Shown here piece by piece: positions 23,917 to 31,645 of a stretch of DNA of 60,288 nucleotides. The translations under genes and the position numbers were made by a program. The stretch spans positions 1 through 60,288 of the forward strand of contig SYGP01000004.1 of the NCBI GenBank assembly GCA_005799495.1, written 5' to 3'. Each line of letters starts with the position of its first letter. The first letter of the stretch is position 1. Origin of the DNA: Planctomycetia bacterium (GTDB lineage Bacteria > Planctomycetota > Phycisphaerae > Phycisphaerales > SM1A02). Under the pieces are notes generated by a model. The model did no database searches. It was given only the letters and a program-made list of their open reading frames with translations, and was not told the DNA's origin.

Positions 23917-25341
23917 TCACGCGATCGTGTTGTTGAGCAGGTTGTTGTTCGCGTTGTAGGCCGCCACCTTGTAGCACTCGGCATAGGTGGGGTAGTTGAA
24001 GACATTGGTGAGGAAGAAGTCGAGCCCGCCCTTCAATCGGATCACCGCCTGCCCGATGTGGACCAGTTCCGTCGCATTCGATCCGATGATGTGCACGCCG
24101 AGCAGTTGGCGCGTCTCGCGGTGGAAGATCAGCTTGAGGAATCCATCCGCGGTTTCCGCGATCTTTCCCCGCGCGATCTCGTTGTAGCGCGCAACGCCGA
24201 TCTCGTACGGGACCTTCTCCTTCGTGAGTGCCTGCTCGGTCGCGCCTGCGCTGCTCATCTCTGGGATGCTGTAGATGCCGAGCGGATAGTCCTGCCCCAT
24301 CGGCGGCGCGGGTTCGCCGAACATGTGGCACGCGGCGAGGCGCCCTTGCGCCGCGCTCGTCGCCGCAAGCGCGGGGAAGCCGATGAGATCGCCCGCCGCA
24401 TACACGCTCTTCACGCTGGTCTCGTACTGCTCGTTCACGCTGATGCGACCGCGCGAGTCTGCGGCGAGACCAATGGCATCGAGGTGCAGCCCCTCCGTGC
24501 AGCCTTGGCGCCCCGCGGAGATGAGCGCGACATCCGCCGTCATGCGCTTGCCGCTCTCGAGTTCCACCAAGACGCGCCGCGGACGCTCGTCGATGCACGC
24601 AATGCGGACGACCGCCTCGCCACAGCGGAAGATCACATCCTGCAGCCGCATGTCATGGATCATCTCGTCGATCGTCTCGGTGTCCATGAAGGAGATGGGG
24701 CGTTCTGCCCGCTCGATCAGCGTCACCTTCGTGCCGAGTGTGGCAAAGAACGATGCATACTCCACGCCGATCACGCCGCCACCCACCACGATCATGGTGC
24801 GGGGGATTTCGCGGAGCGCAAGCACGCGGTCGCTCGTGAGCACGATGGGATTCTCGTCACTCGAATGATCGGGGCACGAGGTGGGGATCACCGGGCGCGT
24901 TCCCGTGGCAAGCAGGGTGAACGCGGTCGTCACGCGACGGTCGCCCTCGGGGCTGTCGACGGCAAGTGTGTGCGTGTCGATGAACGACCCGAAGCCCGCG
25001 AGGATGCGCACCTCGTTGCGAAGCAAGTTCTGGCGGATGAGCTGCTGTTCTTCATTGATGACGCCGCTGACGCGGTCGATCAGCATCGGCATGGTCAGGC
25101 GAATCGGATCGGCCCCGGCTGCTTCGAGTGACTTGCGCACCGTGCCGCGCTGCAGGCTCACCACTGCCTCGCGAAAGGTCTTGGAGGGCAGCGTCCCCAA
25201 GTGCACCGAAACCCCACCCACGCCGCGCCGAAGCTCGATCATCGCCACGCGCTTGCCGAGTTTCGCCGCTTGGATCGCGGCAGCCTGACCCGCAGGTCCG
25301 CTGCCCACGACAGTCAAGTCGAACTCATATGCGTCGCTCAT
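23917..25341 (-). CDS. sthA: Soluble pyridine nucleotide transhydrogenase (SthA-type flavoprotein)
   Basis: 474 aa, the size of SthA. The FAD-binding GSGPAG lies at 13-18. The segment where dihydrolipoamide dehydrogenases carry the CxxxxC disulfide reads VSVHLGTLPSK (44-54), with no Cys at all, as expected for a transhydrogenase rather than a disulfide reductase; even the first Cys kept in E. coli SthA is Ser here. The NAD site (GGGVIGVEYASFF) and the C-terminal dimerisation domain are present. It exchanges hydride between NADPH and NAD+. Start at 25341 is supported by TATGCT 6 nt upstream. Diverges from the flavin reductase gene. Confidence 0.9.
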   Translation of the reverse strand: MSDAYEFDLTVVGSGPAGQAAAIQAAKLGKRVAMIELRRGVGGVSVHLGTLPSKTFREAVVSLQRGTVRKSLEAAGADPIRLTMPMLIDRVSGVINEEQQLIRQNLLRNEVRILAGFGSFIDTHTLAVDSPEGDRRVTTAFTLLATGTRPVIPTSCPDHSSDENPIVLTSDRVLALREIPRTMIVVGGGVIGVEYASFFATLGTKVTLIERAERPISFMDTETIDEMIHDMRLQDVIFRCGEAVVRIACIDERPRRVLVELESGKRMTADVALISAGRQGCTEGLHLDAIGLAADSRGRISVNEQYETSVKSVYAAGDLIGFPALAATSAAQGRLAACHMFGEPAPPMGQDYPLGIYSIPEMSSAGATEQALTKEKVPYEIGVARYNEIARGKIAETADGFLKLIFHRETRQLLGVHIIGSNATELVHIGQAVIRLKGGLDFFLTNVFNYPTYAECYKVAAYNANNNLLNNTIA

Positions 25342-25347
25342 GGGGGC

Positions 25348-25353
25348 AGCATA
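25348..25353 (-). promoter_or_regulatory. -10 hexamer TATGCT, leaderless spacing (sthA)
   Basis: Minus-strand TATGCT ends 6 nt before ATG 25341. It is paired with the divergent element at 25369..25374. Confidence 0.55.
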
Positions 25354-25368
25354 GGAGCGCCTCGGCGA

Positions 25369-25374
25369 TACCGT
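25369..25374 (+). promoter_or_regulatory. -10 hexamer TACCGT, leaderless spacing
   Basis: TACCGT ends 7 nt before ATG 25382. It favours ATG over the in-frame GTG at 25373, which overlaps the hexamer itself. Confidence 0.45.
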
Positions 25375-25381
25375 GGTCGCC

Positions 25382-26047
25382 ATGCATTTCACACCCAGTG
25401 ACGAGTCGATCGCTGCCTGCTATCGCCTGCTGATCGGCGTGATTGTCCCGCGTCCGATCGCCGTGGTCGGCACATGTTCGGCGCATGGGCAGGTCAATCT
25501 CGCGCCGTTCTCCTTCTTCACGGGGATTGGATCGCGCCCGATGTCGCTCCTGTTCTGTCCAGTGAACAACCGCGACGGCAGCGAGAAGGACTCGCTTGGG
25601 AACGCAAAACCGCAGGCAGAAGGCGGGCAGGGCGAGTTCACCGTCAGCGTCTGCACCGAGTCCATCGTGCGCCGAGTCGCCGCTGCTGCGGAGCCACTGC
25701 CGTTTGGCGAGAGCGAGTTCGCGTTCGCGGGATTGAACGAGCGCCGGAGCGTTGCGGTTGCGCCACCGTCGGTGGCGGAGAGTCCTGCGGTCTTCGAGTG
25801 TCGCACGCGGCAGGTCGTACGGCTTGCGCCGGGGCAGGCTGGGGGCGGCAACATTGTGATTGGCGAGGTCGTTCATGCCTGGATCGACGATGCCCTGATG
25901 GTCCACGGTGCCGTCGATCCACAGCGACTTCGTGCGGTGGCACGCATGGGCGGCGATTCGTGGGCAACGACGCGCGAACGATTTGACCTTGCGATGGGGC
26001 GCGAGGCATTGCAGGCGCGTCCGCCTCTCGACTTCGGGGTGGTGTGA
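25382..26047 (+). CDS. Flavin reductase-like (FMN-binding split-barrel) protein
   Basis: 221 aa. Early residues LIGVIVPRPIAVVGT, then VNLAPFSFFTGIGSRPMSLLFCP, are the classic N-terminal FMN-contact segments of flavin-reductase-domain proteins; a GEFTVSVCTE segment and GNIVIGEVVHAW follow in order. Members bind FMN and reduce flavin or act as flavin-dependent oxidoreductases using NAD(P)H. It diverges from sthA across a 40-bp gap, so both redox genes may respond together. Substrate not evident. Confidence 0.88.
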   Translation: MHFTPSDESIAACYRLLIGVIVPRPIAVVGTCSAHGQVNLAPFSFFTGIGSRPMSLLFCPVNNRDGSEKDSLGNAKPQAEGGQGEFTVSVCTESIVRRVAAAAEPLPFGESEFAFAGLNERRSVAVAPPSVAESPAVFECRTRQVVRLAPGQAGGGNIVIGEVVHAWIDDALMVHGAVDPQRLRAVARMGGDSWATTRERFDLAMGREALQARPPLDFGVV

Positions 26048-26495: not shown

Positions 26496-27155
26496 GTGCC
26501 ACGACACACATTCATTGCGGCTTTCGCGATCGCCGGCGCGGCATGGATGCTGCTCTCCTGCGGGGCGCCCAAGGACATCCCGCCGAGCGAGCGCCGCCAT
26601 GTCGAACTGTTCAACGGGAGTGATCTCACGAATTGGAAAGTCTTTCCCGCGGACGCGCCGCCGGAAACATGGACTGTTCGCGACGGCGTTCTTGTCTGTG
26701 TTGGGCAGCCGATCGGCTACTTGCGCACGGAGCGCAAGTACACGAGTTTCGAGCTCGATTTCGAGTGGCGGTTCGATCCGACGAAGGGCGGCGGCAACTC
26801 AGGCGTGCTCATGCGTGTGCAGTACCCCGACAAGGTGTGGCCGAGGTCGATCGAAGCGCAGCTGCAGAGCGGCAGCGCTGGAGACATCTGGAACATCGAA
26901 GAGTTCCCACTCAGCGCGAACCGAGACCGCACCAAGGGACGGCACACCACGAAGGCCCATCCGTCGAACGAGAAGCCGCTCGGCGAGTGGAATCAGTATT
27001 CCATTCGGCTCGTCGACGAGAACCTGCAGTTGAAGGTGAACGGGCTGGTGCAGAACACCGCGACGCGCTGCGAAGTGGTGGAGGGCTGGATCGCCCTGCA
27101 GTCGGAGGGAGCGCACATCGAGTTCCGCAACATCAAGCTGCGGCCGCTGCCGTAG
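26496..27155 (+). CDS. DUF1080 lipoprotein
   Basis: 219 aa. Signal peptide with lipobox LLSC (Cys22), then a DUF1080 fold: VELFNGSDLTNWKVF, TWTVRDGVLVC, YTSFELDFEWRF, GGGNSGVLMRVQYPDKVWPRSIE, then GEWNQYSIRLVDENLQLKVN and the closing EFRNIKLRPL. This second copy is closer to the family consensus than the one at 23037 (about 27 kb-scale paralogues on either side of sthA). Members include 3-keto-disaccharide hydrolases, so attack on oxidised sugars outside the cell is possible. GTG start with AGGGGAG ~8 nt upstream. Confidence 0.91.
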   Translation: MPRHTFIAAFAIAGAAWMLLSCGAPKDIPPSERRHVELFNGSDLTNWKVFPADAPPETWTVRDGVLVCVGQPIGYLRTERKYTSFELDFEWRFDPTKGGGNSGVLMRVQYPDKVWPRSIEAQLQSGSAGDIWNIEEFPLSANRDRTKGRHTTKAHPSNEKPLGEWNQYSIRLVDENLQLKVNGLVQNTATRCEVVEGWIALQSEGAHIEFRNIKLRPLP

Positions 27156-27172: not shown

Positions 27173-28270
27173 TCAGCCCTTCGTGCGATTGAATTCGCGC
27201 ATGAACGCGACAAGCGCTTCGACCGCGGGCAGCGGGCACGAGTTGTACATCGACGCGCGAATGCCGCCTGCCTCGCGGTGGCCCGCAAGCCCATCCATGC
27301 CCTCCGTCGCGGCGTCCTTCCAGAATCGCTCGTCAAGTTGCGCGGTCGGCAGGCGAAACGAGGCGTTGATCACCGATCGGCATGCCGACTGCGCGAGGAA
27401 TCTGTAGAACCCGCCCGACGCATCGATCGCCTCCCGCACCAGACGCGCGCGAGTCTGGGCGCGGCGTTCCATTTCGGCAACGCCACCCTCGCGGAGCATC
27501 CACTGGCACATGCGCCACAGCGTGTGGATCGCGAAGGTCGGCGGCGTGTTGATCCGGCTGCCGGCGCGGGCGTGGGCGGCGTAGGAGAACATGGACGGCA
27601 GCTTCCGCGGTGCGCGCTCCAACAGGTCGCGCCGAACGATGATGACCGACATTCCCGCAACACCGAGGTTCTTCTGGCCCGACGCATACACCATGCCATG
27701 CGCAGACCAATCCACGGGCCGTGAGAAGATCTCGCTGCTCGCATCGTTGATCAGCACTGCGCCCTCGGCGCACCGCGGCGGTCCGTGGTACTGCGTGCCA
27801 TGCACCGTGTTGTTGGAGCAGTAGTGCATGTACGCCGCGCCCGCGGTCGGTGGACACTCCGCATCACTCGGTACATGGTCGTACCGGCAGCGTTTGCCTT
27901 CAAAGGGAACCACGATCTGCGCCGCTGGCACGGCATCGCGTCCCTCGACGATCGCCTTCGCGGTCCAGATGTCCGTATCGGGATAGTCAGCCACGCCGCC
28001 ATCGGGCAGCAGGTTGAGGGGAATCAGCGCGAACTGCAATGTCGCACCACCCGGGACGAACAGGATCTCATGCGAATCGGGAATTCCGCCGAGCCGTCGA
28101 CAGGAGTCCAGCGCTCCAGACAGCACGCGGTCGAACGGCGGCTGCCGATGCGAGTGCTCGAGGATGCCGATGCCCGTTCCCTCGAGATCGAGCAGATCAT
28201 CGCCCAGTTCCCGCAGCACGGGCTCGGGCATGGCGGCAGGACCTGCAGAGAAGTTCCAGATGCGTCCCAT
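27173..28270 (-). CDS. serC: Phosphoserine aminotransferase
   Basis: 365 aa, standard for SerC. The PLP lysine is Lys200 in YASGQKNLGVAGM; the N-terminus NFSAGPAAMPEPVL and FVPGGATLQF are family hallmarks, and the C-terminus has REAGGIRASMYN. It converts 3-phosphohydroxypyruvate and glutamate to O-phosphoserine and 2-oxoglutarate. It is the last gene of a unit with serA (12-bp gap) and a DUF1015 gene, an arrangement seen in several bacterial phyla. No serB is visible here. Confidence 0.95.
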   Translation of the reverse strand: MGRIWNFSAGPAAMPEPVLRELGDDLLDLEGTGIGILEHSHRQPPFDRVLSGALDSCRRLGGIPDSHEILFVPGGATLQFALIPLNLLPDGGVADYPDTDIWTAKAIVEGRDAVPAAQIVVPFEGKRCRYDHVPSDAECPPTAGAAYMHYCSNNTVHGTQYHGPPRCAEGAVLINDASSEIFSRPVDWSAHGMVYASGQKNLGVAGMSVIIVRRDLLERAPRKLPSMFSYAAHARAGSRINTPPTFAIHTLWRMCQWMLREGGVAEMERRAQTRARLVREAIDASGGFYRFLAQSACRSVINASFRLPTAQLDERFWKDAATEGMDGLAGHREAGGIRASMYNSCPLPAVEALVAFMREFNRTKG

Positions 28271-28282
28271 TGTCGGGGATCT

Positions 28283-29548
28283 TCAGTCGTGCGTGCCGCG
28301 ACGAATCGACTGCACATGGACACCCAGCACATGCGGCGCTTCGCGGATCTGTCGCATCGTGCGTTCCGTGGGCAACTCGTTCAAGTGGATGCGTGCGATC
28401 GCGGCTTGCCCGCCTTCGCAGATGACATTCTCCATCTCCTCCACATTGATGCTCGCCTGTCCGAGCACATCGAAGATGCCGACGAGGACGCCCGGGCGGT
28501 TCAGGTGCCGGACATGGATCAGCGTCGTTGCGCTGCTGACCGACGCGCGGTTTGCGCAGCTGGGCACCGTTCCCGTTTCGAGCCATTGCCGCACGACGCG
28601 AACGACATCCTGGTCGATCGACTCCCGTGCCTGGGCCGTGTGAGCGCCCGCATCGAGCGTGGCAATCACGCCGGGTTCCTTGAGCAGTTCGGCAAACGGC
28701 AACGCGGGGCTCGAAAGTCCCTCGGCCGAGTGCAGGTCGAGTCCCGCGCGAATGCCCTTGGTTCGGCAGGCATTCAGCAGCGCACGCTCGTTCACGACGC
28801 TGCCCAGGCTCGTGTTGACGATCGAGCACCCGGGGCGCAGCGCTTGGAAGAACTTGTCGCCGAGCAGGCCTTCGGATTCCTCGTTGCCGGTCACGCTGAC
28901 GCTGACCACATCGGAAAGCTTCGCCAGGTTGACCAGGTTCGCGCAGTAATCGATGCCGAGCGCGTTGCAGCGCGCTTCGGTGATGTGCTGGCTCCACGCG
29001 ACCACATGCATGCCGAATGCAATGCCGCGCCGCGCGACTTCCTGCCCGACTTGACCGAGCCCGACCACGCCGAGCGTCCGTCCAAAGAGCCCAAGCGCTT
29101 CGCGGCCTCCTTCGCTGACCCGTCCCGCCCGCGCACGCTCGGCCGCGTTCATCAGATTTCGGTCACATGCCAAGATCAGGGCCCAGGCAAGTTCTGCGAC
29201 GGCTGCCGCGGTGCGTCCGGGGCAGTGCGCCACGAAGATGCCGCGGTTGCTTGCTGCTTCGCGGTCGATGCTGCCGATGGTCGGTCCGGTGCCGATCACC
29301 AAGGCGAGTCGCTCGGAGGCACAGAGCACGCGTTCGTCCACCACCGCATCCCGTGTGACGAGGATGTCCGGCTCGATGTCGCGGACTGCATCGGGCAGGG
29401 TCGTGCCCGAAAGCAGCGGATTCTGGATCGCATCGCAGCCCGCCCCGCGGAGTCCCTCGAGCGCATGAGTGCTCAGGTGGTCCACGACCAGCACGCGCGA
29501 AGCCATCGCCAGTGGCGTGGCGAACACGGTCGGCTCCTGCTCACTCAT
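28283..29548 (-). CDS. serA: D-3-phosphoglycerate dehydrogenase-like protein with ACT domain, atypical active site
   Basis: 421 aa. A D-2-hydroxyacid dehydrogenase core (Rossmann GLGQVGQE at 163-170) is followed by an ACT domain (about 342-415, HLNRPGVLVGIFDVLGQASI). Position next to serC argues for 3-phosphoglycerate dehydrogenase. However, the catalytic Arg of the N-x-S-R-G motif is Leu248 (NTSLG) and the catalytic His of TPHxGxxT is Asp299 (TLDAGAHT); only Glu276 of the Arg-Glu-His triad is kept. A divergent PGDH-like branch with altered His is known in other phyla, so the protein may still work, by a different arrangement. Start at 29548 overlaps the DUF1015 stop (ATGA). Confidence 0.85.
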   Translation of the reverse strand: MSEQEPTVFATPLAMASRVLVVDHLSTHALEGLRGAGCDAIQNPLLSGTTLPDAVRDIEPDILVTRDAVVDERVLCASERLALVIGTGPTIGSIDREAASNRGIFVAHCPGRTAAAVAELAWALILACDRNLMNAAERARAGRVSEGGREALGLFGRTLGVVGLGQVGQEVARRGIAFGMHVVAWSQHITEARCNALGIDYCANLVNLAKLSDVVSVSVTGNEESEGLLGDKFFQALRPGCSIVNTSLGSVVNERALLNACRTKGIRAGLDLHSAEGLSSPALPFAELLKEPGVIATLDAGAHTAQARESIDQDVVRVVRQWLETGTVPSCANRASVSSATTLIHVRHLNRPGVLVGIFDVLGQASINVEEMENVICEGGQAAIARIHLNELPTERTMRQIREAPHVLGVHVQSIRRGTHD

Positions 29549-30813
29549 GATTGCAATGTTAGCGGTGCATCCATCGCAGGAGAGCAGGCGTGCGACGAGA
29601 AGGTGTGCAGGAAGAGCCCACTTCGGATCTTCGGATGGAACCAGGTGGACTTCGGCGGCATGATCAGCCCCGCACCTGCAACGGTCAACAGTTCGTCGAT
29701 GGATGTGGGGTGCATCGCGAACGCAATGTCCGCGCTGCCATTCTCCACATGCGCGGCCAGTTCCTGCGGTGTGCATCCGCCCACGAACGCCAGGCGCGTG
29801 TCCGTGCGCTCATCGGTGATGCCGAGGATTGGCGCGAGAACGGTGCGCGAGAGGCGCACGACATCGAGCCGATCGGTCGGCAGGTCACCGCTCTCGCGCG
29901 GCAGGCGCAGCCGCCACCAGGATCGGTTCAGGTAGATCGTGACTTCGCCCTTCGCGCGCGGCGTCGGGCCGTCACTTTCGTCCACCGCATCGAGGACCCC
30001 CACATCGCCGAGCGCGCGTTCCACCTGCTCCACGGTCTGCCCAGGAGCGAGCCGAACCAAGCGGTGGTAGGGGAGGATGAGCAACTCTTCCGCGGGGTAG
30101 ATCACCGCAGGAAATCGCCCCAGTTCAGTTCGGTCGATGCCGTCACGGCCATCGGCGAGCGCTGCAGCCGCACGCGCTGCAGCCGCGCTCCTGTGATGAC
30201 CGTCCGCGATGAAGATCCGCGGTACATCGCGAAACAGCGCGCGGTACGCATCGACGGATGTTGCGGCCCACAGCGTGTGGATCACCTTGTCCGGCGCGCT
30301 GAAATGAAAGAGCGGTCGGTGATTCATGTCGCGCGACAGCTGCGCTTGAAAGTCCTCGAGCCCTGCAACGGTCAGGAACACGGGTTCGGAGTGCGCGCCG
30401 AGAGCGATCATGTGATCGGTACGGTCCTGCTCCTTGTCGGGGCGGGTCAGTTCATGTCGGGCAATGGTGCCGCTGAGGTAGTCCGCGACATCCACACAGC
30501 ACACCAATCCGCTCTGCGTGCGTCCCTTTTCCGCCTGTCGGTAGATGAAGAAGTTCTCCCTTTGCTCACGCACCATGCAGCGGCTTGCAATCAGGGCGCG
30601 CAGGTTGTCCAGTCCCTTGGCGTACACGCTGGGCGAGTGCGGGTCTTGGTCCGCGCCAAAGTCAACCTCGGGGCGCACGACGCGCATGAAACTGTGGGGG
30701 TTCTTCGCCCAGTCCGCGGCGGCAGCGTGGTCCACGACGTCATAGGGCGGGCATGCCACCTGCGAAACGCGATTTGCAGCGGCGCGAATAGCCAAAAATG
30801 GGTGAACGCGCAT
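29545..30813 (-). CDS. DUF1015 family protein
   Basis: 422 aa. The family is recognised by MRVHPFLAIRAA, ACPPYDVVDHAAA, NPHSFMRVVRPE, FIYRQ, then DGHHRSAAA and the C-terminal FVGGCTP and MPPKSTWFHPK segments. DUF1015 (COG4198) proteins have no settled function, but they are often encoded with serA and serC, as here, implying a role tied to phosphoserine metabolism. TACACT lies 10 nt before the ATG at 30813. First gene of the DUF1015-serA-serC operon. Confidence 0.92.
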   Translation of the reverse strand: MRVHPFLAIRAAANRVSQVACPPYDVVDHAAAADWAKNPHSFMRVVRPEVDFGADQDPHSPSVYAKGLDNLRALIASRCMVREQRENFFIYRQAEKGRTQSGLVCCVDVADYLSGTIARHELTRPDKEQDRTDHMIALGAHSEPVFLTVAGLEDFQAQLSRDMNHRPLFHFSAPDKVIHTLWAATSVDAYRALFRDVPRIFIADGHHRSAAAARAAAALADGRDGIDRTELGRFPAVIYPAEELLILPYHRLVRLAPGQTVEQVERALGDVGVLDAVDESDGPTPRAKGEVTIYLNRSWWRLRLPRESGDLPTDRLDVVRLSRTVLAPILGITDERTDTRLAFVGGCTPQELAAHVENGSADIAFAMHPTSIDELLTVAGAGLIMPPKSTWFHPKIRSGLFLHTFSSHACSPAMDAPLTLQS

Positions 30814-30898: not shown

Positions 30899-31645
30899 AT
30901 GGACCGCAACAGTTGCATCGCAGTGCTTGTGCGCCTCATTGAGGCAAAGGAGGGAGAGGGTCCAGGGCACTGCCACCGAGTGGCGTCGCTCGCTGCGTCG
31001 CTCGCCGCGCATGTCGGACTCGATCAGGGCCAGGTCGAGGCTGTACGAATCACGGCGATGATTCATGACTTGGGGAAGCTGACCATTCCAGACGAAATCC
31101 TCTTCAAGCCGAGCCGACTCAGCGAAGATGAGTTCGCGGTCATTCGGCGCCATCCAGAGACTGGTGCGCGGTTGCTCGGCGCGTTTGATGAACTGCACTT
31201 TGCTCGAGCCGGCGTTCGAAGCCACCACGAGAGGTGGGATGGTCAGGGCTATCCCGATCGTCTGCAACGAGATGCGATTCCGTTGGCATCGCGCATCATC
31301 GCCATTGCCGACAGCTTCGATGCGATCTGTTCCGATCGACCGTACGCGCGTCGGCGTTCATCACGCAACGCAGTCGATGAAGTACTGCGGTGCGCAGGTT
31401 CTCAGTTCGACCCGGAACTCGCGGTTCACTTCGCCGATCTCTGGCAGCAGGATGTTGCGCTCCAACGGTGGGGCGACCTCGAGAGGGAAAGAACTTCGGT
31501 TGGGAGTGGACAGTGTGAAGATTCGTGCTATTCTCCTGACTGTAGTGGCGACGGATTGCCATGGGGGCGTCCGAGAGCGCAAGGGTGCAAGGAGAACGCA
31601 CATGCTCGAGAGATCAGCACAGCTTGTGTCACTTTTGGCGCGTAG
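30899..31645 (+). CDS. HD-GYP domain protein (putative cyclic-di-GMP phosphodiesterase)
   Basis: 248 aa. A nearly free-standing HD-GYP domain: the first metal His in GHCHRVASLA, HD at 56-57 (MIHDLGK), RRHPETGARLL, and HHERWDGQGYP at 109-119, then IIAIADSFDAIC. All expected metal and GYP residues are present, so hydrolysis of c-di-GMP is plausible. No receiver or membrane domain precedes it. The last ~55 residues look non-conserved and Cys/Gly-rich, and the final 44 bp overlap the next gene in another frame. Confidence 0.9.
   Translation: MDRNSCIAVLVRLIEAKEGEGPGHCHRVASLAASLAAHVGLDQGQVEAVRITAMIHDLGKLTIPDEILFKPSRLSEDEFAVIRRHPETGARLLGAFDELHFARAGVRSHHERWDGQGYPDRLQRDAIPLASRIIAIADSFDAICSDRPYARRRSSRNAVDEVLRCAGSQFDPELAVHFADLWQQDVALQRWGDLERERTSVGSGQCEDSCYSPDCSGDGLPWGRPRAQGCKENAHAREISTACVTFGA
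31507..31534 (+). promoter_or_regulatory. Candidate promoter inside the HD-GYP gene
   Basis: TGGACA (31507..31512), a 16-bp spacer and an extended -10, TGC-TATTCT (31529..31534), precede the small sigma-4-like gene. Transcription would begin ~60 bp before its ATG, allowing expression apart from the HD-GYP gene. Confidence 0.4.

Follow-up and report, generated by a model that had tools for sequence, protein, structure and literature searches.

The serine operon

The window, by which we mean the whole analysed stretch of 60,288 nucleotides (contig SYGP01000004.1, positions 1 to 60,288), contains three adjoining genes read from the minus strand. The middle one, serA2, encodes a homologue of PGDH. 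The features of the operon are as follows.

29545..30813, minus strand: DUF1015 protein (422 aa), the stop of which overlaps the start of serA2 by 4 bp (ATGA)
28283..29548, minus strand: serA2, operon-encoded PGDH homologue (421 aa), a 2-hydroxyacid dehydrogenase core with a C-terminal ACT domain, without the catalytic Arg and His
29045..29062, minus strand: Rossmann motif GLGQVG of serA2, residues 163-168, glycines invariant in 18/18 orthologues of the genus
28286..28528, minus strand: ACT domain of serA2, about residues 341-421, with His348, Asn350 and Asn368 at E. coli His344, Asn346 and Asn364
27173..28270, minus strand: serC, phosphoserine transaminase, 12 bp downstream of serA2

The N-terminus of the DUF1015 protein was picked by homology. 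SerC scores above the cut-off of one family model (NF003764, 381.7 bits against 253) and below that of another (TIGR01364, 382 against 443.6), and it retains the sequence ASGQKNLG, which we take to contain the PLP lysine. The initial annotation saw serA2 as part of an operon with serC and a DUF1015 gene, and the order DUF1015-serA2-serC was indeed found throughout the genus: all 17 loci that extend far enough have DUF1015 upstream, and 18/18 have serC downstream. Of the 17 genus loci showing both genes, 13 allow the 4-bp ATGA overlap, and in the other four the nearest start is 9-10 bp past the stop. We also read 80 loci of serA2 relatives, taken from named records and mostly from planctomycete MAGs. 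DUF1015 and serC were on the same strand as the serA2 relative in 52 of them, while 11 had DUF1015 only, 4 had serC only, one had a DUF1015 gene on the opposite strand, and 12, the most distant relatives included, had neither in the flanks covered. One genome of the same genus (G001, 92% complete) gave no matches to serA2, serC or DUF1015 and has a canonical SerA; the absence could be an assembly gap or a true loss.

Other genes close by in the window encode an HD-domain protein (HD_5, 30899-31645), a protein with a 3-keto-disaccharide hydrolase domain (26496-27155) and a pyridine nucleotide-disulphide oxidoreductase (23917-25392).

Domains and fold of serA2

Both 2-hydroxyacid dehydrogenase domains of serA2 exceed their Pfam cut-offs, and the ACT domain gives a weak match of 19.3 bits, under the cut-off of 27. 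The AlphaFold2 model (mean pLDDT 86.1, pTM 0.68) superposes on human PHGDH (7dkm) with a Z of 32.6 and an rmsd of 2.1 over 304 residues, and on E. coli PGDH (1yba) with a Z of 30.9 and an rmsd of 8.2 over 370 residues, the latter match running through residues 12-407 and including most of the ACT domain. The architecture is that of a type II PGDH, with a substrate domain, a Rossmann domain with GxGxxG, and an ACT domain at the C-terminal end. His344, Asn346 and Asn364 are described as the residues of the E. coli SerA ACT domain that contact serine (PMC6300728), and their counterparts H348, N350 and N368 are each present in 18/18 genus sequences, as well as in 14/14 other His-less rows outside the genus. 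An intact Rossmann site and an ACT domain, as first described, are thus both there, even if the latter is below the Pfam cut-off.

Loss of the active site

Three codons of serA2 correspond to the catalytic triad.

28805..28807, minus strand: codon 248 (Leu), by alignment at the position of the catalytic Arg (E. coli Arg240), in the motif NTSLGSVV
28721..28723, minus strand: codon 276 (Glu), at the position of the catalytic Glu, kept in the window and lost in 14/18 genus orthologues
28652..28654, minus strand: codon 299 (Asp), by alignment at the position of the catalytic His (E. coli His292), in the motif ATLDAGAHT

We take Glu276 to correspond to E. coli Glu269. The initial annotation had placed Leu248 and Asp299 at the catalytic Arg and His by eye. 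In HMMER alignments with the PGDHs of M. tuberculosis, P. horikoshii and E. coli the placement stands: the Arg loop reads NTSLG against NASRG, NAARG or NTSRG of the known enzymes, the His loop reads ATLDAGAHT against LTPHIGGST or VTPHLGAST, and neither loop is gapped, the gaps between the loops being of single residues. A shifted loop that would restore Arg or His is thereby ruled out. A sequencing error or frameshift is ruled out as well, because the loss is common to the 17 other orthologues of the genus, with Arg248 in 0/18 and His299 in 0/18.

The replacing residues differ between sister species. Among the 18 genus sequences, one of them partial, position 248 is L in 15, P in two and E in one; position 276 is A in eight, E in four, V in three, D in two and S in one; position 299 is Q in 12, D in four, and R and T in one each. 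The earlier statement that only Glu276 is kept is therefore right for the window genome and does not hold for the lineage, where Glu is found in 4/18. With replacements that vary in this way, the genus sequences share no substitute set of catalytic residues at the triad positions.

The substrate phosphate of PGDH is described as held by an Arg-Ser motif, an Arg of β4-α4, a Lys or Arg of the partner subunit, and a Gln of α5 (PMC6303947). In the 68 alignment rows classed as 'rest' these positions (66, 67, 86, 146 and 308) are almost uniform, with R in 68, S in 65, R in 68, K in 66 plus R in two, and Q in 67. The window protein keeps Arg66 and has D, G, E and R at the other four. Across the genus Arg66 is largely retained (R14, K2, Q1; 14/17), Arg86 is kept in 0/17 (C12, G4, A1), Lys146 in 0/18 (E6, P4, Q3, D2, and one each of R, S and G), and Gln308 in 0/18 (R16, C2). 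Neither the triad (L248/E276/D299) nor the phosphate-site residues are thus those of a catalytically competent PGDH.

The window protein also scores far below the cut-offs of two curated PGDH equivalog models (136.5 against 404 and 194.5 against 454). This proves little, because 6/6 triad-complete operon SerAs fail too, with higher scores (209-214 against 404 and 287-309 against 454), and we dropped these scores as a sign of catalytic loss.

Selection on serA2

Nei-Gojobori estimates of omega for nine pairs within the window's genus, the only group they cover, are rough, with some dS values above 1, and gave 0.059-0.110 for serA2, 0.033-0.102 for serC and 0.074-0.120 for DUF1015. No genus orthologue of serA2 has an internal stop codon, and one is split by a contig end. 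Of the columns that are invariant in triad-complete rows, the genus retains the largest fraction in the ACT region (0.96), followed by the Rossmann core (0.92), the linker (0.91) and the N-terminal parts (0.81-0.83), and the smallest in the active-site loops (0.57). What was found is an orthologous clade with a consistent loss of catalytic residues under purifying selection, as would be expected of a pseudoenzyme.

A canonical SerA in the same genomes

Three proteins of the window genome (G000, 2.36 Mb, 97.8% complete) match the NAD-binding domain of the superfamily over its whole length, and six further matches are partial or weak. A search for another serA, as proposed with the first description of the locus, led to contig 21, where a canonical SerA of 406 aa, here called SerA1, has the full triad (ARGS, DVFPDEP, TPHIGGST); of the two curated PGDH models, it clears the cut-off of one (542.9 bits, cut-off 404) and falls short of that of the other (251.1 bits, cut-off 454). 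Contig 17 encodes a paralogue of 357 aa that has the triad too and looks too short to hold an ACT domain. Canonical SerA is present in 19/19 genomes of the genus, in 36/61 genomes of the relatives search (the window's own included) and in 138/181 genomes of the family. SerA1 retains its own ACT serine residues in all 30 loci read.

All 45 serA2 rows with triad loss come from genomes with SerA1, compared with 54 of the 83 triad-complete rows (row-level Fisher p = 8e-7). Counted by genus the figures are 6/6 and 19/34 (p = 0.067), and the tree holds only one independent pair, so a link of triad loss to SerA1 is no more than suggestive.

In a genome of genus g60 (G186) canonical SerA also occurs in fused form: L254 179-2170 encodes a 663-aa protein in which a SerB-like HAD phosphatase is joined to an ACT-bearing SerA. 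A similar fusion is suggested in genera g17, g48 and g53 by neighbouring matches in reading frames of comparable length.

States of serA2 in the family

The family has 147 genomes with serA2, and in the 128 where it was read several states of the active site were observed. Genus g60 (13 rows) keeps the triad and has lost Arg66 and Arg86, as well as the basic residue at 146 in 12/13; the protein may here have changed its substrate rather than be a dead enzyme. The flanks read in g60 loci such as L151 and L170 showed no serC. Genus g55 (13 rows) has Ser in place of the catalytic Arg. Genus g18 (9 rows) keeps Arg, with Glu replaced by Ala and His by Gly, and g2 (2 rows), g62 (1) and g6 (2) are likewise without the catalytic His. 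Genera g42, g47 and g49 have Gln for Glu and retain Arg and His; this was not counted as a loss, because Gln occurs at the same place in active formate dehydrogenases, according to PMC6303947.

An IQ-TREE phylogeny was made from 56 rows, without the triad columns and those next to them; g6 was left out as a long branch. All 15 His-less rows form one clade in it (support 100/99), which requires a single change, compared with three changes for Arg and four for Glu (Q counted as E); the bootstrap had yet to converge completely (correlation 0.988). The same clade was recovered, with an SH-aLRT of 99, in a quick tree that included g6 and comprised 89 rows. Since the His-less clade is nested among triad-complete operon SerAs, the loss is derived, and it happened once, in an ancestor of five genera. 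The partial states are parallel and not one series, since genera g55 and g60 group together as a sister branch.

The loop that separates NAD from NADP enzymes (residues 185-189, 128 rows) reads WSR in most serA2 rows, triad-complete or not. Ser is found in 61/68 and Arg in 65/68 of the 'rest' rows, and in the genus Ser in 18/18 and Arg in 15/18, the window protein having Gln. At this place the characterised SERA enzymes are described as having Asp, and many NADP-type GHRA enzymes the sequence [ST]R[ST]X[RK] (PMC6303947). WSR instead of the NAD-specific Asp implies that the operon PGDHs may be of the NADP type.

The DUF1015 protein

The model of the DUF1015 protein (pLDDT 93.1) was compared with solved structures using Foldseek, and 9/9 matches at E<=0.001 were SerK, its P. 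furiosus relative or SbnI. The Z scores to this set were 11.1-13.3, and the next structure, sulfiredoxin, reached 4.9. A sequence search of the PDB gave no matches up to E = 10, so the likeness to SerK is one of fold only. On this model the protein is predicted to have the fold of the free-serine kinases SerK and SbnI.

Among 181 genomes of the family, 108 had a strong DUF1015 match, 58 had a SerB-like HAD protein and none had both (Fisher 1e-33, kinship not corrected for). Fifteen had neither, four of them with a weak DUF1015 match, and 17 of the 58 genomes with the SerB-like protein also retain a weak one. A strong match here means E<=1e-60, a line set after the E-values had been seen, the other 21 matches being at 6.5e-23 or weaker; SerB-like means a TIGR00338 match at E<=1e-10, and all 58 are under the cut-off of that model. 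The relatives search, whose 61 genomes overlap the 181, gave the same picture, with DUF1015 in 53, the SerB-like protein in five, both in none and neither in three. The exclusion is not universal, as two control genomes outside the phylum, Bacteroides ihuae and Methanosarcina acetivorans, match both.

In genera g18, g55, g60, g48 and g6, where most genomes have SerB-like matches, 37/37 loci have upstream of serA2 an ORF in which none of the four DUF1015 motifs searched for (PPYD, HExTR, ADGHHR, PPKSTWF) is present. This ORF was chosen mechanically as the longest on the same strand, and two further loci had no such ORF. Eight that were inspected (L031, L151, L156, L165, L170, L191, L192, L245) are diverged and often shortened, and look like relics of DUF1015 beside serA2. 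Four were compared with Pfam: two pass the DUF1015 cut-off, one is below it and one has no match.

The fold and the exclusion of SerB-like proteins together make DUF1015 a candidate for the final, missing reaction of serine synthesis: an enzyme of this fold that turned phosphoserine into serine would complete the operon. The direction can only be expected from the operon, since SerK is described as a kinase that uses ADP (PMC5120207). Many bacteria with SerA and SerC are reported to lack a known phosphoserine phosphatase (450 gut genomes in PMC9026213), and DUF1015 makes this problem testable. This by-product of the analysis may matter more than the finding on serA2 itself.

A possible role for a probably redundant PGDH

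Loss of catalysis in serA2 is strongly supported, and the protein very probably has no PGDH activity. With the active site lost, the ACT domain kept and a normal copy elsewhere, serA2 probably senses or regulates rather than catalyses. The initial annotation had offered two options, that the chemistry uses other residues, or that the active enzyme is elsewhere and this protein is regulatory. The canonical SerA of all 19 genus genomes agrees with an active enzyme elsewhere, and a regulatory role is what we infer and favour; chemistry with other residues is disfavoured because the replacements vary among sister species.

The best explanation, which we consider fairly probable, is that serA2 of this freshwater planctomycete group is a PGDH that was made redundant and then retained as a serine-sensing pseudoenzyme. 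A regulatory role is suggested by the invariant serine-binding residues of the ACT domain together with the purifying selection, and serine binding would be the best candidate for what the protein does without catalysis. The same residues are equally invariant in the triad-complete relatives, so conservation alone does not show a new role, and since SerA1 keeps its own ACT serine residues there is no obvious need for a regulator in trans.

We propose the following course of events. The ancestor would have been a PGDH with an ACT domain, encoded in a serine operon of the form DUF1015-serA-serC and presumably active. In a lineage that had a canonical SerA1 of the E. coli type as well, the operon copy would have lost the residues that bind 3-phosphoglycerate as well as the Arg, Glu and His residues, and would then have been held by purifying selection with the PGDH fold, the dinucleotide-binding motif and the serine-binding ACT site intact. 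Most likely it would serve as a serine sensor or scaffold, in which the binding of serine, and perhaps of NAD(P)H, alters the closure of the domains. The change in closure would act on a partner, which might be SerC, the SerK-like DUF1015 protein or SerA1. It might even be that the whole serine operon moved from catalysis to sensing, with serA2 as the serine-sensing pseudoenzyme, a motif-less DUF1015 kept beside it in the SerB-type genera, and both displaced enzymes forming a regulatory complex, a thought that we offer tentatively and with considerable doubt.

An explanation that we regard as unlikely is that serA2 became a new enzyme, with its pocket rebuilt for another reaction through His108, His273, Cys194 and Asp312. 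These columns are fixed, or nearly so, in the genus and other in the triad-complete relatives: H108 is found in 17/17 (N in 79/81 triad-complete rows), H273 in 18/18 (F, Y or W in the triad-complete), C194 in 18/18 (A in 80/81) and D312 in 17/18, and H108 is present also in 12/14 of the other His-less rows. The protein also retains its dinucleotide motif, and in type IIIK PGDH His is reported to be replaceable by Lys with activity kept (PMC6303947). However, the newly fixed columns are scattered over the protein, and the classic catalytic positions vary among sister species; P and E at the position of Arg, among other variable residues, imply that the anchoring of the substrate is not conserved.

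We also think it quite improbable that serA2 is a purely structural subunit or scaffold that holds SerC and DUF1015, or SerA1, without sensing any ligand. The purifying selection, which is like that on the operon neighbours, would be accounted for, and so would the motif-less DUF1015-like ORFs that stay by serA2 in g18, g55, g60, g48 and g6, as if the pair were kept for a non-catalytic purpose, but the invariant serine-contact residues and GxGxxG of the genus exceed what a scaffold needs.

That serA2 is still a weakly active PGDH or keto-acid reductase, transferring hydride without the usual acid-base residues, would agree with the intact fold and cofactor motif and with Arg66 of the substrate loop in 14 of 17 rows, but is very unlikely given the joint loss of Arg248, His299, Arg86, Lys146 and Gln308 beside a complete canonical SerA. 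Finally, a relic in slow decay, kept by translational coupling between two needed genes, is hardly credible and was rejected on omega even though the possible ATGA overlap is conserved in 13 of 17 loci, since coupling requires an open frame, which the overlap with DUF1015 could hold, and not a conserved protein, whereas omega is 0.06-0.11 as in serC and DUF1015, the ACT and Rossmann columns are kept, and the loss of His is single and ancestral to five genera.

Comparison with known systems

The DUF1015 protein resembles SerK and SbnI, the only strong PDB matches of its model, also in its neighbourhood of serine genes; the serK genes of Desulfurococcales are described as adjoining those of PGDH and an aminotransferase (PMC5120207). 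It differs from them in sequence (about 14% identity over 225 residues), in length (about 420 residues compared with 240) and in the expected direction of the reaction, which in the operon would run from phosphoserine to serine. A 'DU1015' fusion is named among the proteins tested in a 2025 survey of the ParB-CTPase fold (PMC12704722), which means that DUF1015 had already been connected with this fold. We found no publication linking DUF1015 with serine in the open-access literature.

serA2 is like the type II PGDH of E. coli (1PSD/1YBA) in domain order, ungapped catalytic loops, fold and the serine-contact residues of the ACT domain, and unlike it in the replaced catalytic Arg and His, the changed phosphate-site residues and the βB-αD loop, where Asp has given way to a sequence of the WSR/WSQ type. 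Type IIIK PGDH (Entamoeba type; 4NJO) is also a SerA relative with His replaced, and is without the Glu. It is reported to keep Arg, to use Lys as the acid-base residue and to be active (PMC6303947). In contrast, serA2 has lost Arg, and has L, P or E at 248 and Q, D, R or T at 299 in the genus; Lys at position 299 is found in 0/18, which rules out the Lys-for-His chemistry.

Members of the 2-hydroxyacid dehydrogenase superfamily without catalytic residues are on record. One is Arabidopsis CTBP/ANGUSTIFOLIA (AN), and in subfamily X4 (1QP8) about half of the members are described as having lost the catalytic His and Glu (PMC6303947). serA2 and AN both lack the catalytic residues, AN being a plant protein from the sister clade of CtBP. 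To our knowledge the AN branch has no ACT domain. X4 is a different subfamily from that of serA2, and its His is given as replaced by Trp in the same source. With AN and half of X4 without catalytic residues, the kind of protein that serA2 represents is already known. Our searches of the open-access literature did not turn up this pseudo-PGDH, and what is new, as far as the literature was searched, is a bacterial operon PGDH pseudoenzyme with a serine-type ACT domain that has triad-complete relatives and intermediates in one family. As a rule, an enzyme that has given up catalysis and kept its allosteric domain is observed only once the change is complete. In this bacterial family several states can be seen next to one another, triad-complete, with loss of the phosphate site (g60), with loss of Arg (g55) and with loss of Glu and His (g18), and the genus of the window represents the state without two or three of the triad residues.
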